Both the position numbers and the translations under genes were made by a program. From positions 186,001-250,000 of the forward strand of contig NZ_LR215979.1 in assembly GCF_900683735.1 (NCBI RefSeq): 64,000 nt of DNA, read 5' to 3'. Positions 14,238 through 21,948 of this stretch are shown one piece after another (within the stretch, counting starts at the first letter, position 1; each line of letters opens with the position of its first letter). The stretch comes from Fusobacterium ulcerans ATCC 49185. GTDB lineage: Bacteria > Fusobacteriota > Fusobacteriia > Fusobacteriales > Fusobacteriaceae. A model generated the notes under the pieces. That model had not been told where the DNA came from and ran no database searches. It was given only the letters and a program-made list of their open reading frames with translations.

Positions 14238-14326
14238 AGTAAAAGCAATGGTCTAAAAAATATTAGACAAAATAAATAATTCTATATATTTATTATTTCT
14301 TAATTAGTAATTTTTAAATAGTTTAT

Positions 14327-14357
14327 AAGGCTGGAAGGGTTAAAATCCTCTCAGCCT
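14327..14357. terminator. Terminator between folP and the FGGY kinase gene
   Basis: AAGGCTG pairs with CAGCCTT, with partial inner pairing of GAAGG and CCTCT and a short A-rich loop. The two flanking genes converge on it. Confidence 0.75.
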
Positions 14358-14406
14358 TTCTTATATAGAATTTTAAATTATGATATTTTTGAATAAAATA
14401 TTAAAT

Positions 14407-15915
14407 TTATTCCATTAAAGTTTTAGTTTTGCTATAGAGGTTATCATAAATTTTTCGATATTTCCTATATTTTTTATGAACTTTAATATCTGGATAAAAT
14501 ATTTTTTCTATTTTTATTATACTTTTTAATTCTTTGAAATTTTTAAAATGCCCTGTTCCTATTCCAGCCATTAAAGCATCTCCATAAGAAGCACCTATAG
14601 ATTCTTTCATCAAGTAAAGAGGTTCATTAATAATATTAGATATCATCTGCATCCATTGGGTATTTTTTGTTCCTCCTCCTGCAATCATTATTTTATTTAG
14701 TTTTAAATTATTTTCTTTAAATATATCTATATGCTGTCCAATTGAATAGCCAATTGATTCCAGCATTGAACGATAAAGATGTTTTTTAGTATGATTTAAT
14801 GTTAAACCAAATAATACTCCTTTAGCTTTGGGATTATTTATAGGAGTTCTTTCTCCAGCAAAGTATGGAAGTGTTATTAATCCATCACTTCCAGGAGGAA
14901 TTTTATCTATACCATCCATTAAAAATTCAAAAACATTTCTTCCATTTTTTTCTTGAGTAAAAATATCAAATATTTGTTCTTTATACCAATTCAATAATGT
15001 GCCACAATTATTTGTACCAGCTGCAACACTATAAGTTTCAGGAATAAGAAAGTTATTTCCTCGTACTCGAGTATCTTTGATTAGCTGTTCTGTACAGAGA
15101 TAAATAAAAACAGATGAACCTAACTGAATCATCATATCTCCAGCTTCTAGAACTCCTACACTTATAGCTTCTGCTGCTGAATCTCCAGTTCCTGTTATTA
15201 CTGGAGTTCCAGCAGGAATACCAGTTTCAAATTCAGCTTTTAAAGTTACATATCCAGCTATTTCTGTTACAAGCTTTCCTTGAGCAAGCTGTTCTGGTAG
15301 GCAAAAATCTTTGCAAATATCATTATTAATATTTCCATCAGTGTAATAAAGAGGTCTAAAAGATGCAATTCCTAAAAAACTGTCTATTATATAGTTGTCA
15401 GTCAATTTAGCCGTAATATAGGAGGAACCAGTTAGAAATTTATAAGTATTTTTATAAATCTCAGGTTCATTATTTTTAATCCAAAGTATTTTTGCAACAA
15501 CATCTCCAGAGCATACAGGACGTCCAAAAAGTTTGTCTATTTTTTCATTACCATACATTTGTGTTATTTCATCTATTTCAGCTTGACATCTAGCATCTAT
15601 TCCATAGAGAATGGCTTTTCTTAAAGGATTACATTTTTTATCAACAGGGAGACAGTCAGCACCAAGTGTGCTTGCTCCCACTCCAGAAATTTTAGTTTTA
15701 TCTATTTTGCTTCTATTGAGTAGTTCATTTGAAATTTTACAAAAATCATACCACCAAACTTTTTCTGCATCATGTTCAAAATAATTTTGTTTTGGATTTT
15801 CCATTTCATGAGAAGTTTGGCTGGAAATAATAATTTCCCCTTTACTGTTTATAATAACACCTTTACTTGAAAAAGTTCCAATATCTATTCCAATAAAATA
15901 TTTTTCTTCTGTCAT
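14407..15915 (-). CDS. FGGY-family carbohydrate kinase (xylulokinase-like)
   Basis: This 502-residue sugar kinase has the N-terminal ATPase signature YFIGIDIGTFSSKGVII, a GTGDSAAEAISVG segment (about residues 235-250) and the second signature IMIAGGGTKNTQWMQMISNI near residues 385-405. It is closest in style to xylulokinase/LsrK-type FGGY enzymes, but the substrate cannot be read from sequence. It is the last gene of a minus-strand operon with a BtpA/SgcQ protein, a broken GltS-like carrier, an FrlB-like deglycase and a cupin. A second kinase of a different fold (PfkB) sits in the same island. Confidence 0.88.
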   Translation of the reverse strand: MTEEKYFIGIDIGTFSSKGVIINSKGEIIISSQTSHEMENPKQNYFEHDAEKVWWYDFCKISNELLNRSKIDKTKISGVGASTLGADCLPVDKKCNPLRKAILYGIDARCQAEIDEITQMYGNEKIDKLFGRPVCSGDVVAKILWIKNNEPEIYKNTYKFLTGSSYITAKLTDNYIIDSFLGIASFRPLYYTDGNINNDICKDFCLPEQLAQGKLVTEIAGYVTLKAEFETGIPAGTPVITGTGDSAAEAISVGVLEAGDMMIQLGSSVFIYLCTEQLIKDTRVRGNNFLIPETYSVAAGTNNCGTLLNWYKEQIFDIFTQEKNGRNVFEFLMDGIDKIPPGSDGLITLPYFAGERTPINNPKAKGVLFGLTLNHTKKHLYRSMLESIGYSIGQHIDIFKENNLKLNKIMIAGGGTKNTQWMQMISNIINEPLYLMKESIGASYGDALMAGIGTGHFKNFKELKSIIKIEKIFYPDIKVHKKYRKYRKIYDNLYSKTKTLME

Positions 15916-15927
15916 ATAATACCATCC

Positions 15928-16740
15928 TTACAGAGTTTTACGATATTCAAAAACAACTTCCATAAATTCTCTTACTCTTTTCTTTTCAATAAAGTTTTCA
16001 AATTTACCTTCTTTTTTAAAGGCTGTACCCACACAAGCTCCATCAGAATAAGAAAGTTTTTCAATTATGTTCTCTTTTGTACAACCTGTATTACAAAAAA
16101 CAGGAGTATTATTTACTACACTTTTTACTCTTGTAATTAAGGAAGAATCTGTCTCAACCCCTGCAGAATTTCCTGAAACACATAAACCATCAGGAAAGCA
16201 ATGAAAAATAAGAGATTTAGTTGTTTTTTCTATGCTGCGTTCAGCTAAATAAATATCTGATTCAGGATTTACTTTATAAAAGAGTTTTAATTTGTTTAAT
16301 CCAAGAGCTTTTTTTCTTCTTAATGTTTCAGGTATATTTGTATCAGTTATTCCATTTTCTCCAACATATGCTCCAGTGAATGTACTTCTTACAAAATCAG
16401 CTCCAGTTGCAGCAGCTAGATCAATAGTTGCAAGAGGATTAGAAACAATATTTACACCAAAAGGAATCAAAATATCTTTTTTTAGTTCTCCAATTATTCT
16501 TCCCATAGCAGCCACAGTAACATAAGAAACATTTTTTTCATAAGGAAGACTAAATTCATTAGCTATGAGAATACCATCTACTCCTCCTTCTTGAAGGGAA
16601 ACTAATTCAAATCTAGCTTGTTCAATAATTTTCTCCATAGAACTTTCTTCTGAAAAAAGAGGATCTCCGGGGAGAGCACGCAAATGTAATAATGCAATTA
16701 TAGGTTTTTTAACTTTAAACATTTCTTTTATCCAATTCAT
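15928..16740 (-). CDS. BtpA/SgcQ-family TIM-barrel protein
   Basis: The 270-residue protein matches the BtpA/SgcQ family, whose biochemical role is poorly defined. Visible conserved blocks are PIIALLHLRALPGDPLF at the N-terminus, EGGVDGILIANEFSLPY, PFGVNIVSNPLATIDLAAATGADFVRSTFTGAYVG (central barrel strands) and a late CNTGCTKENI. The start is the second ATG (16740), because GGAGG lies 7 bp upstream of it, whereas the first ATG (16752) overlaps that site. The family recurs in uncharacterised sugar-catabolism clusters such as E. coli sgc. Function here is unknown. Confidence 0.85.
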   Translation of the reverse strand: MNWIKEMFKVKKPIIALLHLRALPGDPLFSEESSMEKIIEQARFELVSLQEGGVDGILIANEFSLPYEKNVSYVTVAAMGRIIGELKKDILIPFGVNIVSNPLATIDLAAATGADFVRSTFTGAYVGENGITDTNIPETLRRKKALGLNKLKLFYKVNPESDIYLAERSIEKTTKSLIFHCFPDGLCVSGNSAGVETDSSLITRVKSVVNNTPVFCNTGCTKENIIEKLSYSDGACVGTAFKKEGKFENFIEKKRVREFMEVVFEYRKTL

Positions 16741-16815
16741 AATTTCCTCCATAATTTATAATAAAAGAGAGAGTCAAAGCTGTTAAAATTGAACTCTCTC
16801 TTATTAATTTAAAAG

Positions 16816-18206
16816 TTAAGCATCTTGTGATTCATCATATACTGCTTTTGGATGGGGATGCCACCATTTGAAAATAAAAGGTATAATAATAAGAGCAGCC
16901 AAATACAACAGAACAGGGATTACTGCTATTAACCAGTTTCCTTGAACACAAGCTACAGGTATTGTAGCTAAGGCAAAAATTTCAATAATTGATTCTAATG
17001 GAGTTATTATTGCAGCATCATCCAGAGTACAGCTTTTATTTTCGGGATCAACTATACGAAGCAAGGCCATACCTATTGCAGTTACTCCTGTAGAATAACC
17101 ATAGACATATATTCCTCTTTCAAACCATTCTTGTTTCAGTAATCTTGGAGCTAATACTGTGAAATGGAATACTACCCATATCATTCCAAAAATCATAAGC
17201 AATCCAAATGGAACAGCATATTCAATAACAACAGGTATTTTAATAGAAGCTACACCAAAGAATACAAGAAAATCTGTACAGCAGCTTCCTATTCTTGAAA
17301 TAACTTTAGTATCCACATATTTTTCAGCACCCATTCCTTTTAAAATGAAATGGAAGATTATTGCTACAAGGAACCCTACTGAGAAACTAGGAACCCTACT
17401 GAGAAACTAGGAACCCCAAGTCCTGTTATATTTTGTATCCAATTTGTAAGCAGATATCCGATTCCAGTAGGAATTAAAACTATCATTAAATGCCATGCTA
17501 AAGGATCAATTGCCATTGGAGATACAGTTTCCATTCCCATAGGTTCTCTTTTATTAGGTTCAATAAGCCCAGTTTTCATATCAACAGGCAATTCTGTAAA
17601 ATCTGTTACATATTTTGTATAATGCTTTTTTGTTCCAAGTTTAATAAGAATAATTCCACCAAAAATTCCCATAAGTATTCCCATAGTTGCAGATGTCATA
17701 GCAAGATCTTGTGCATCAGCCCATCCTAATGATTCAAGAGTTGCCCCAAGAGCTGCAGCCGTTCCATGTCCTCCTTGGAATCCAGCAGGTATCAACATAC
17801 CAAATGCAGGATTAAGTTCAGGAACTAAAAATTTTAAAAATAACATAGAAAAGACTATTGGCATTGCGTATTGGAAAGCCCACCCAATATTCCTGAAACA
17901 ATAATAGCTTCCAATTCTATCTATATTTGTTTTAAATCCACCTTTTGAAAAATTGAACCCTCTTAAACCAATAGAAACAAATACTGCTATGATAAGTAAT
18001 CCAGCATATGAACCAAATTTATCAGAAAATTGAATAATATTAAATCCATTTTGTCCAAAAGCCAACCCTAAAAATCCACCTAAAAGGCTGACAGGTACAA
18101 ACATACTTTGTAAAAATTTGATCCTTTCCCTTAAAAATTTTGCAGCAAAAAGAAAGATACTTGCTAACATAAAATCAACTAATAGTGTATATGCATCAAA
18201 TCCCAT
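16816..18206 (-). pseudogene. GltS-type sodium/glutamate symporter-like carrier, frameshifted by a 20-bp tandem duplication
   Basis: Two open fragments (17376-18206, the N-terminal 276 residues, and 16816-17334, the C-terminal part) form one GltS-family carrier of about 456 residues. GltS marks include PAGFQGGHGTAAALGATLESLG and DLAMTSATMGILMG. At the junction a 20-bp unit occurs twice in perfect tandem (17371-17390 and 17391-17410). Removing one copy restores a continuous frame reading GVPSFSVGFLVAIIFHFILKGMGAEKYV across the break. With two copies the frame shifts and stops at once. Surrounding coding is otherwise undamaged, so the event is recent, reversible or a sequencing/assembly error. 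In the island it would be the importer. Confidence 0.9.
17371..17410. repeat. 20-bp perfect tandem duplication inside the GltS-like gene
   Basis: The unit GAACCCTACTGAGAAACTAG occurs twice head-to-tail, followed by a further GAACCC. Twenty is not a multiple of three, so copy number decides whether the carrier is read through. Confidence 0.97.
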
Positions 18207-18329
18207 ATAATTCTCCTTTTTTATATTTTATATTGTATTCCCTTTTTTATAATTTTATTAATTAGCTAATTGTATTGCTGCAGCAATTTTTATTTTAAAA
18301 TCTAGATTTAAATTATAAATTTATTTAAA

Positions 18330-19310
18330 TTAATATTCTACTTTCCACATATATCTTCTTTCATCCATAGAATGATTTCTTATTTCAGCCATTTGAGCTA
18401 CATAATGACGTTCAATTGGAATCATTATTACTGGATTAAAAAATTCTACTACACTGCTATCTATTTTATTAATTCCAAGTTCTCTTGGGTCAATTACTAT
18501 AAAGTTTTCAGCATATTTTTCTAAGAATGTTCTGCATCTTTCATCTAAAGCTCGAGTACGTCCCTCACTCATAAGTAAGATCATAGGAAGTTCTTTGGTT
18601 GTTGTTTCAAATGGTCCATGAAAATATTCACCAGTATGAATACAAATAGCATGTTTCCACTGCATTTCCATAAAATGGCAGAAAGTCATTGAATAAGCGA
18701 CCCCATAGTTAGAGCCAGAAGCCAATACATAGAATATGGGACAATCTTTATTTTTTTTAGCCCATTTTTGAGCTTCTAACAATACTTTTTCCTTAGCCTC
18801 AGCAATTATTTGATCAATATAATCATAAGCCTTCATTGCAGCATTATAATTTTCATAATTTTCAAATTGTTTTAGAATTTCAAATCCTATTCTTAAAGAA
18901 TTCGATTGATTTGAATCGCTGTAAATTTGATTGTCTCCATTAGAATAAACAACTACATATTGTCCCACTTCAGCCATTCCTGTTTTTGAAGAACCAGTCA
19001 TAGAAATTGTAACTGCTCCAGCAGCATTTGCTGTTTTTACTGCTTCAACAGTTTCAGGGGTAGCTTTTAATGAACATATAACTGCTATACATCTTTCATC
19101 TAGTTCCTTAGGTGTAGCGTGAACAAATTCATTACTAGTATATGTTGTGGCTCCAAATGTTTTTGCTTCACTCTGTAATAGGTAAAGTCCAGGAAAGATA
19201 GCTGCTTTGGATCCACCACATGCTATAAAATATACATGTTTCAATCCACCAGCTTTATCCATTTTTGTTTTAATTTCACTTATTATTTCTTTTACTTTTG
19301 ATGCTTCCAT
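18330..19310 (-). CDS. SIS-domain sugar isomerase/deglycase, FrlB-like
   Basis: The 326-residue protein has SIS folds as in fructoselysine-6-phosphate deglycase FrlB. Shared features are the start of the first SIS domain (VYFIACGGSKAAIFPG), the active-site block HTGEYFHGPFE (FrlB has ESGEFRHGPLE), and the C-terminus DERRYMWKVEY (FrlB ends DERRYYGGLVEY). FrlB splits a 6-phosphorylated Amadori compound into glucose-6-phosphate and the free amino acid. The ATG at 19310 is chosen because GAGGAGG precedes it. With a FrlD-like kinase and GntR regulator nearby, a glycated amino acid or similar substrate is inferred; the exact substrate is unknown. Confidence 0.85.
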   Translation of the reverse strand: MEASKVKEIISEIKTKMDKAGGLKHVYFIACGGSKAAIFPGLYLLQSEAKTFGATTYTSNEFVHATPKELDERCIAVICSLKATPETVEAVKTANAAGAVTISMTGSSKTGMAEVGQYVVVYSNGDNQIYSDSNQSNSLRIGFEILKQFENYENYNAAMKAYDYIDQIIAEAKEKVLLEAQKWAKKNKDCPIFYVLASGSNYGVAYSMTFCHFMEMQWKHAICIHTGEYFHGPFETTTKELPMILLMSEGRTRALDERCRTFLEKYAENFIVIDPRELGINKIDSSVVEFFNPVIMIPIERHYVAQMAEIRNHSMDERRYMWKVEY

Positions 19311-19365
19311 CTTGATACTCCTCCTCAATTTGTAACTATTTTTAAATTTTATTTTTTTATTTTTT

Positions 19366-19785
19366 CTAGTTTTTTAATAATTCTTCAGTCCTTTTTCTTA
19401 AGTCAGTCAGTTCTTTTTCTGTCATATTTATATACTCACTATTACCAGGTTCACCATTAGTTCCAGCATCTTGTACATAGATAAGTTTTGTATCTTTTTC
19501 TGTAATAGTATTAAACCATGTTCCTTGTGGAATATTATACACTTTCATTGGTTCCATTTTGATTATATCTATTTGAAATGAATTATTTTCTCTGGTTGCT
19601 GCAAGTAAGATTGCATTTCCTTTTAAAAGAATAAATTGCTCATCAGTTTTATAATGTACTTCAAGATATTGAATATTTTTTATATCGTTATTAGGTTTCC
19701 AATTTTTAATACATACCACCCATTTTTTATTGTTGTAGATACAATTAATTCCTTCACCCTCAAAAGAAAATACTTCAGCTTTCAT
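19366..19785 (-). CDS. Small cupin-like protein
   Basis: This 139-residue soluble protein has a beta-rich pattern that resembles a single-domain cupin: EVHYKTDEQFILLKGNAILL (sheet plus Gly turn) and MEPMKVYNIPQGTWFNTI (second cupin motif style). The ATG at 19785 is the start because AAAGGAGG lies just upstream; the longer frame from 19809 lacks one. It is the first gene of the minus-strand island operon, directly before the FrlB-like gene. A sugar-epimerase or sensing role is possible, but I do not recognise a specific function. Confidence 0.65.
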   Translation of the reverse strand: MKAEVFSFEGEGINCIYNNKKWVVCIKNWKPNNDIKNIQYLEVHYKTDEQFILLKGNAILLAATRENNSFQIDIIKMEPMKVYNIPQGTWFNTITEKDTKLIYVQDAGTNGEPGNSEYINMTEKELTDLRKRTEELLKN

Positions 19786-19807
19786 AAAATCCTCCTTTGT
19801 AAAATTC

Positions 19808-19859
19808 ATTATATAACATATTATAACATTATAATAAAATATATAAAAATAAATGTCAA
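19808..19859 (-). promoter_or_regulatory. Promoter and operator of the cupin-FrlB-like operon
   Basis: On the minus strand TTGACA (19859-19854) and TATTAT (19836-19831) are 17 bp apart. Downstream lies an AT-rich element (19830-19808) containing GTTATAATATGTTATATAATG. The GTTATATAATG part is repeated at the divergent PfkB promoter, suggesting a shared operator. Confidence 0.75.
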
Positions 19860-19968
19860 GAATTTTTTTGAAAATATTGAAAATAATTTAAAATTAGTTT
19901 TAAAATTATAGTTAAAGTTAATAAAAAGAACATTAAAAATTATAAACGTATATTTAAAATAAAAAAAA

Positions 19969-20028
19969 TTGACTTAAAATTTTCTCTCCTATATAATAAA
20001 ATCAACAATGATATAATGTTATATAATG
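19969..20028 (+). promoter_or_regulatory. Promoter and operator of the FrlD-like kinase gene
   Basis: TTGACT (19969-19974) and TATAAT (19992-19997) have a 17-bp spacer. Downstream, GTTATATAATG at 20018-20028 matches the element in the divergent promoter. The most likely ligand is the GntR/UTRA regulator encoded at 21.1 kb. Confidence 0.75.
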
Positions 20029-20049
20029 AGTTTTAAGGAGGATATTTTT

Positions 20050-20898
20050 ATGGTAAAAGTATTAGGAATTGGAGATAATGTTTGTGATAAATATATTCAT
20101 TCAGGGATAATGTATCCAGGAGGTCAGGCACTAAATTTTTCAGTCTATACAAAAATGCTAGGAGCAAATTCATCATATATGGGAGTATTTGGCAGTGATA
20201 AAGTAGCAGCACATATTATAAAAACATTGGATGAACTACAAGTTGAGCACAGTAGATGCCGTCAATATGAAGGAGAAAATGGCTATGCTAGAGTTAATTT
20301 AGTAAATGGAGACAGAGTTTTTCTAAATAGTAATAAGGGAGGAGTATTAAATAAATATCCTATTCAATTAGATGGAGAAGATATAAAGTATATAAAAGAA
20401 TTTTCTCTTGTTCATACAAGTAATAATAGTTATTTCAATTCACAGTTGCCCAAGTTAAAAGAATTGGGAATCGCAGTTTCTTATGATTTTTCTAATCGTT
20501 GGAATCAATTAGAATTGATAGAAGAAGTAGCTCCGTTTATAACATATGCTTTTCTTTCTTGTGGTTCTACTAAAGAAGATGAGGTAAAAAAAATATGTAA
20601 AAAGATTTTTTCTTATGGATGTAAACTAGTAATAGCAACAAGAGGGAGTTTAGGAGCAGTGGTATATGATGGAGAAAAGTTTTATTTTCAAAGCTCAAAA
20701 TTAGTGGAAGCTATAGATACTTTAGGAGCTGGAGATTCTTTTGCCTCAGCATTTCTTTTATCTATAACTGAGGATATTATAGAAAATTCTTATAATAGTT
20801 TATCTATAAAAAAAGCAATGGAAAAAGGGGTGGAGTTTGCTTCAAAAATTTGTATGAAAAGAGGAGCTTTTGGATATGGAATTTCTTTTTCTGAATAA
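20050..20898 (+). CDS. PfkB-family sugar kinase, FrlD-like
   Basis: The 282-residue ribokinase-fold enzyme resembles fructoselysine 6-kinase FrlD. It has an N-terminal GIGDNVCDKY (FrlD: TIGDNCVDIY), YPGGQALNFSVYTK, SYDFSNRWNQ (FrlD: FDFSDKWDS), and the PfkB signature with catalytic Asp, IDTLGAGDSFASAFLLS, near residue 235. It would phosphorylate C6 of an imported Amadori-type sugar adduct for the FrlB-like deglycase. The start ATG 20050 follows AAGGAGG; an upstream ATG at 20026 has none. It is divergent from the cupin-FrlB operon. The C-terminal end overlaps the first copy of an 85-bp tandem repeat. Confidence 0.87.
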   Translation: MVKVLGIGDNVCDKYIHSGIMYPGGQALNFSVYTKMLGANSSYMGVFGSDKVAAHIIKTLDELQVEHSRCRQYEGENGYARVNLVNGDRVFLNSNKGGVLNKYPIQLDGEDIKYIKEFSLVHTSNNSYFNSQLPKLKELGIAVSYDFSNRWNQLELIEEVAPFITYAFLSCGSTKEDEVKKICKKIFSYGCKLVIATRGSLGAVVYDGEKFYFQSSKLVEAIDTLGAGDSFASAFLLSITEDIIENSYNSLSIKKAMEKGVEFASKICMKRGAFGYGISFSE

Positions 20899-21065
20899 AA
20901 AAGGAAAGTTATCTTTAAAATAATATTTTTTCCATAAAGTTAGCTATTAAATTAAAAAATAGGTTATTTCTTTTTCTGAATAAAAAAGGAAAGTTATCTT
21001 TAAAATAATATTTTTTCCATAAAGTTAGCTATTAAATTAAAAAATAGGTTATTTCTTTTTTTGAA
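20881..21065. repeat. 85-bp perfect tandem duplication with partial third copy
   Basis: Copy 1 (20881-20965) covers the last codons and stop of the PfkB gene and the downstream spacer. Copy 2 (20966-21050) appears identical, and 21051-21065 begins a third copy with one mismatch. The duplication pushes the GntR gene away from the kinase gene. Perfect identity argues for a recent event. Confidence 0.95.
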
Positions 21066-21131
21066 GTATTATTATATAATATAAGTACGTTTTAAATTAT
21101 AGATATGGTAAAAACAAAGGAAGGGAAATAT

Positions 21132-21866
21132 ATGTTAGATGCACAGGCTGTAACACCACTGTATGTTCAGTTGATGAATAATATAGAAGAAAATATAAAT
21201 AATAGAGTATTTCTTCCTGGTGAAAAGTTAAAATCAGAAAATGAAATGGCTAAAGAATATGGAGTAAGTATAATCACTGTACGTAATGCTATTGGAGCCT
21301 TGATAAAAAAAGGACTTGTAGAAAGAAAGCAAGGAAAAGGGACTTTTATCAGTAAGCCTAAATATACAAGAAACATGAAAAAATTACAAAGTTTTAGTGA
21401 TATGTGTCATCAAATGGGAGTAGTACCAGGAGCTAAGACACTGGAAAATAAACTTATTATTCCTGATGAAAAGATTTCTAAAATGTTGGAGATCCCAGCA
21501 GGAACACAAATTGTATTTATTTCAAGAGTTAGATATGCTGATAATGAACCAATAGCCATTGAAAACAACTATTTTTCTCCAAAATATTCTTTTCTTTTAG
21601 GAGAAAAATTTGATGATAATTCATTGTTTGAATTTATAAAAAAGAAATTAAGAACTTCAGTAGCAGTTTCCACTTCTGAAAAAAGAATAGAGATATGCAA
21701 AGCAAATCAAAAAGAAGCAGATTTGTTAAATGTAAAAAGAAATTCCTCGATGCTTTTTGTCAAAAGTATAGCTTATGATAATGAGAATGAACCTATGTAT
21801 GTTGGAATACAGATAATAAATGGGGAACGCTTTTCTTTATATGTATATGAATCAGCTAATGAATAA
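21132..21866 (+). CDS. GntR/UTRA-family transcriptional regulator (FrlR-like)
   Basis: The 244-residue protein has an N-terminal GntR winged helix (PLYVQLMNNIEENINNRVFLPGEKLKSENEMAKEYGVSIITVRNAI, about residues 8-70) and a C-terminal UTRA ligand domain (about 90-240, with FISRVRYADNEPIAIENNYF). UTRA regulators bind sugar phosphates or Amadori compounds; FrlR has the same length and architecture. The ATG at 21132 is preferred for its AAGGAAGGG site. The palindrome TATTATATAATA at 21070-21081 lies upstream and could be an autoregulatory site. It likely controls the divergent island promoters. Confidence 0.88.
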   Translation: MLDAQAVTPLYVQLMNNIEENINNRVFLPGEKLKSENEMAKEYGVSIITVRNAIGALIKKGLVERKQGKGTFISKPKYTRNMKKLQSFSDMCHQMGVVPGAKTLENKLIIPDEKISKMLEIPAGTQIVFISRVRYADNEPIAIENNYFSPKYSFLLGEKFDDNSLFEFIKKKLRTSVAVSTSEKRIEICKANQKEADLLNVKRNSSMLFVKSIAYDNENEPMYVGIQIINGERFSLYVYESANE

Positions 21867-21871
21867 TCACA

Positions 21872-21904
21872 AAAAGGCAGTTAGAAAATTTTAAACTGCC
21901 TTTT
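21872..21904. terminator. Terminator between the GntR and SIMPL genes
   Basis: AAAAGGCAGTT pairs perfectly with AACTGCCTTTT around an 11-base loop, with A and T runs on both sides. It serves both converging genes. Confidence 0.88.
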
Positions 21905-21948
21905 ATTATAATACTAAATATTATATTTTAGTTTATTCACTTTTTTAG

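Follow-up and report, generated by a model that had tools for sequence, protein, structure and literature searches.

Probable inactivation of the GltS-family carrier gene of an acquired fructosamine-type islet by a recent spontaneous tandem duplication in Fusobacterium ulcerans

In Escherichia coli K-12, an 8-bp insertion breaks the permease gene phnE and reverts by spontaneous slippage (PMC6469041). Phase variation is defined by high-frequency reversible switching without selection (PMC11868660). In Salmonella lacking the deglycase of the fra system, loss of the transporter FraA or of the kinase FraD protects against the toxicity of the phosphorylated intermediate (PMC12755824); 86 of 96 resistant insertions obtained in fraB mutants fell in fraA, and such mutants also arise in mice (PMC12755824). 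Here, we analyzed a window of 64,000 nucleotides from F. ulcerans ATCC 49185 (bases 186001-250000; the genome is one contig of 3.84 Mb with a completeness rating of 100%), in which a GltS-like carrier gene is interrupted by a perfect tandem duplication. Probably, a recent spontaneous tandem duplication guided by microhomology knocked out the importer gene in a fructosamine-type catabolic islet that had been gained horizontally. The carrier duplication is an ordinary event that belongs to a general mutational class.

Structure of the duplication and its effect on the carrier gene

The repeat search showed that the unit AGGAACCCTACTGAGAAACT recurs at 17369-17416 with a period of 20 bp, a 100% match and 2.4 copies over 48 bp, and that this maximal extent comprises two full copies and a further 8 bp. 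The initial annotation had described two perfect 20-bp copies at 17371-17410; the copies were confirmed, while that span falls slightly short of the maximal one. The identity run for the 20-bp period is 28, which gives shared ends of 8 bp (AGGAACCC, at 17369, 17389, and 17409). Ten 64-kb sequences simulated with a first-order Markov model contained no perfect tandem unit of at least 16 bp, so a chance origin of the 20-bp repeat is excluded. If breakpoints fell at random, ~5e-4 of duplications would be expected to share ends of at least 8 bp. Shared ends like these are what slipped mispairing between short direct repeats usually leaves behind, and the locus has the form of a microhomology-mediated tandem duplication, a direct tandem copy with short matching bounds, here of 8 bp. 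We infer that the 8-bp match predated the duplication: two direct repeats of 8 bp, spaced 20 bp apart, would have let replication slip, or the strands mispair, so that the 20-bp stretch was copied an extra time.

The carrier gene lies on the minus strand, and its frame from ATG 18206 stops after 276 aa at a TAG (17376-17378) within the repeat. The net gain of 20 bp is not divisible by 3 and shifts the frame, and the 3' part (16816..17406, minus strand, 196 codons) lies in a different frame from the 5' part (17376..18206, minus strand). The ribosome would therefore meet the stop inside the repeat, and the full carrier would be absent. The 5' part matched the Glt_symporter family (PF03616) above the gathering score, with 55.1 bits against a cut-off of 26 (E 6.9e-15, profile 8-256 of 368), whereas it reached 35.1 bits on TIGR00210, the equivalog of the GltS sodium/glutamate symporter, against a cut-off of 310.75. 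Judged from these profiles, the carrier is a relative within the family and not necessarily GltS itself. An intact orthologue from a different genus within the window's family (L049) gave 69.6 bits with PF03616 over profile 8-335; the profile did not match the full-length proteins of Clostridium fessum (L047) and a Clostridium MAG (L048), and the N part of L047 alone gave 47.2 bits. A sequence search of solved structures returned none that matches the carrier, and an AlphaFold model built on a four-row alignment had a pLDDT of 35.5, too low for interpretation. A second carrier of the same family, intact and 39% identical, is encoded at 2.08 Mb of the same genome.

We also considered that the split gene still yields a working carrier, through two polypeptides or ribosomal frameshifting, a reading to which we give almost no credence. 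A start codon does lie ~40 nt past the stop (ATG 17334, giving 172 aa). However, the AAAGGA motif abuts this ATG with zero spacing, a restart there would leave ~10 conserved residues, part of a hydrophobic stretch, missing from both pieces, and the orthologues are all fused. Programmed frameshifting was examined as well; the sequence leading up to the stop contains no slippery heptamer of the -1 type, which makes recoding unlikely.

Intact orthologues and the age of the event

The contig scan for the locus returned two Clostridium loci only, with a same-species strain absent among them. The intact orthologues of C. fessum, the Clostridium MAG, and the other genus of the window's family are 80%, 78%, and 79% identical to the carrier, respectively. 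In all three, the segment VPSFSVGFLV occurs once, and the reading frame runs unbroken through it. The N part of the split gene is 78-80% and the C part 79-85% identical to the orthologues, and neither gene part contains further stops. The event is taken to be recent because the copies are identical, both parts are about equally conserved, and no decay is visible. These results bear out two earlier proposals: that the duplication breaks an otherwise undamaged GltS-family carrier, both parts being conserved with no further stops, and that the event is recent, the copies being identical and the parts 78-85% identical to intact orthologues.

At the corresponding sites, all three orthologues share only 3-4 bp at that spacing, which argues that there is no maintained repeat tract and that the 8-bp match came from codon choice in the carrier's own lineage. 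As far as these alignments tell, the shared 8 bp would thus stem from that codon choice and not from a conserved device. It was also proposed that loss of one copy could restore the frame. The same process that duplicated the stretch could drop one copy, so the lesion would be revertible in principle; slippage reversal is plausible, and phnE of E. coli K-12 may serve as the precedent by analogy.

The good conservation of the rest of the carrier would equally be expected if the real gene were intact and the duplication an assembly or sequencing error. We hold such an error to be highly improbable, since the genome is a single contig rated 100% complete, common reads are all longer than the 48-bp array, and a perfect 20-bp gain would be atypical of base-calling error.

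The fructosamine-type islet and further tandem duplications

The carrier belongs to a seven-gene cluster within an islet of ~7.6 kb between folP and the next gene (14265..21916, ends approximate). Five genes lie on the minus strand, encoding an FGGY-family carbohydrate kinase (xylulokinase-like, 14407..15915), a BtpA/SgcQ family protein (15928..16752), the carrier, an intact SIS-domain sugar-phosphate deglycase-like protein of the fructosamine-6-P deglycase type (18330..19328), and a small conserved protein (19366..19809) that is cupin-like by eye, has no Pfam match, and is 67-70% identical to orthologues adjoining intact carriers. Two genes lie on the plus strand and encode a PfkB-family kinase (20026..20898), whose best model is fructoselysine 6-kinase with a score under its cut-off, and a GntR/UTRA regulator (21105..21866). 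The SIS protein matched solved deglycase-like SIS proteins (9otj, E 9e-76; 3eua, E 1e-73) and keeps the residues that are altered in the PDB point-mutant entries 9otu and 9ou6 (FMEMQW, HTGEYFHGPFE). As in fructosamine operons of the frl/fra type, an SIS deglycase and a PfkB-type kinase stand in one cluster; the scores for the equivalogs of FrlB (NF008481, 87.2 bits against a cut-off of 430) and FrlD (NF007321, 179.6 bits against 247) stayed below threshold. Searching the literature for BtpA together with either Amadori or GltS returned nothing relevant.

In three sister species, the genes that flank the islet are adjacent and the insertion site is empty, which suggests that the islet was acquired. 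In C. fessum the intact carrier is accompanied by the same islet genes, and in genome G031 by some of them; with related clusters in Clostridium, the islet was likely obtained by horizontal transfer. In C. fessum (L047, 9366-11196), two extra genes that the window islet does not have lie between the carrier and btpA, and by eye they encode TIM barrels resembling sugar-phosphate isomerases/epimerases.

We counted perfect tandem repeats with a period of 16 or more in 1.66 Mb of the genome (43%), leaving out the repeat-rich stretch L089, and found three, with units of 20, 85, and 17 bp. The 85-bp unit is present twice at 20881..21060, with shared ends of 10 bp (ATTTCTTTTT), and extends from the last codons of the kinase gene into the space that precedes the GntR gene, leaving the coding sequence unshifted. 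This duplication could alter the expression of the regulator. The 17-bp duplication, with shared ends of 3 bp (genome 1409788-1409824; L090 9788-9824), frameshifts a small membrane-protein-like gene, a paralogue of which in the same genome (72% identical, L090 13090-13512) is single-copy and open. Two sister species, sampled over 0.8 Mb, yielded one 18-bp perfect tandem repeat. The stretch left out of the count (L089, 3993-4180), with periods of 15, 30, and 45, resembles pentapeptide-repeat coding and is a separate kind of tandem repeat. The further perfect duplications in the genome suggest a general mutational process. We regard the 20-bp duplication as a mutation that probably arose by accident, with no switch being maintained.

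The explanation that we prefer has one point against it: one islet holds two of the three duplications, at a distance of 3.5 kb, which is unexpected for a purely random process (~1.2% by chance, counted post hoc). This pairing mildly suggests relaxed selection on the islet or active selection against it. It is a ground for supposing that import by the carrier was harmful or useless, that the slippage mutant was favored, and that the 85-bp duplication in the same 7.6-kb islet is a second such change. By analogy, the Salmonella fra system, in which loss of the transporter or the kinase relieves poisoning when the deglycase is missing (PMC12755824), would lend this some plausibility. However, the deglycase-like gene here is intact and both of its motifs are kept, so a cause of poisoning is not visible; the remaining islet genes all keep open, conserved reading frames, and the 85-bp duplication harms no coding sequence. 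We consider such selected loss of function unlikely.

The initial annotation had further raised a slippage switch that turns transport off in part of the population. Such a phase-variable gene would be on with one copy and off with two, with high-frequency toggling. The perfect direct repeat of frame-shifting length fits this, and copy loss is a known outcome of slippage; phnE has been termed reversible phase variation in the title of Iqbal et al. 2004, as cited in PMC6469041. Under a broad definition of a phase-variable gene, a frame-shifting repeat with variable copy number, the locus would be included, having two copies against one in the orthologues, whereas a supportive but not strictly defining feature, a tract kept in related loci, was missing from the three single-copy orthologues. 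Gaining the second copy would need slippage on 8 bp, yet many 8-bp repeats in the window (~6.6 per given spacing) stay unduplicated. With just two copies, orthologues that match over 3-4 bp without a tract, and similar duplications elsewhere in the genome, one of them breaking an unrelated gene, the proposed switch was not upheld, and we judge it very unlikely. It is extremely improbable that the whole fructosamine-type islet is under recurrent reversible silencing, with the carrier duplication and the one next to the regulator toggling so that part of the population stops importing a substrate with a potentially toxic phosphorylated form.

Comparison with described systems

The locus offers a clean case in which a slippage-type duplication has silenced a nutrient importer; annotation would call the gene a pseudogene, yet it may be revertible. 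It also shows a fructosamine-type islet, common to Clostridium and the window's family, whose apparent importer is a GltS-family carrier. The islet resembles the Salmonella fra locus and frl-type operons in that an SIS deglycase, a sugar kinase, and a regulator are clustered together and a dedicated importer goes with them. It differs in that the importer is of the Glt_symporter family, whereas fra/frl systems use the DcuA-type FraA or an ABC importer, and in its extra BtpA, FGGY kinase, and small protein.

As to the lesion, the resistance genes of Staphylococcus aureus (PMC6819657) are likewise otherwise intact, frameshifted, and potentially able to revert, but their silencing is mostly by single-base loss in poly(A) tracts and not by a 20-bp duplication in a nutrient carrier. 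Microhomology-mediated tandem duplications such as that of ssp1 (reviewed in PMC13207564) share with the carrier a direct tandem copy with short matching bounds, a premature stop, and reversibility in principle; ssp1 is a fission yeast gene and the carrier a bacterial one. In phnE of E. coli K-12, as here, a short frame-shifting insertion lies in a permease gene; the intact phnE allele is found in other strains (PMC6469041). The cryptic phosphonate permease gene belongs to another transporter family and another pathway; its unit is 8 bp against 20 bp in the carrier, and reversal has been demonstrated for phnE and is plausible for the carrier.
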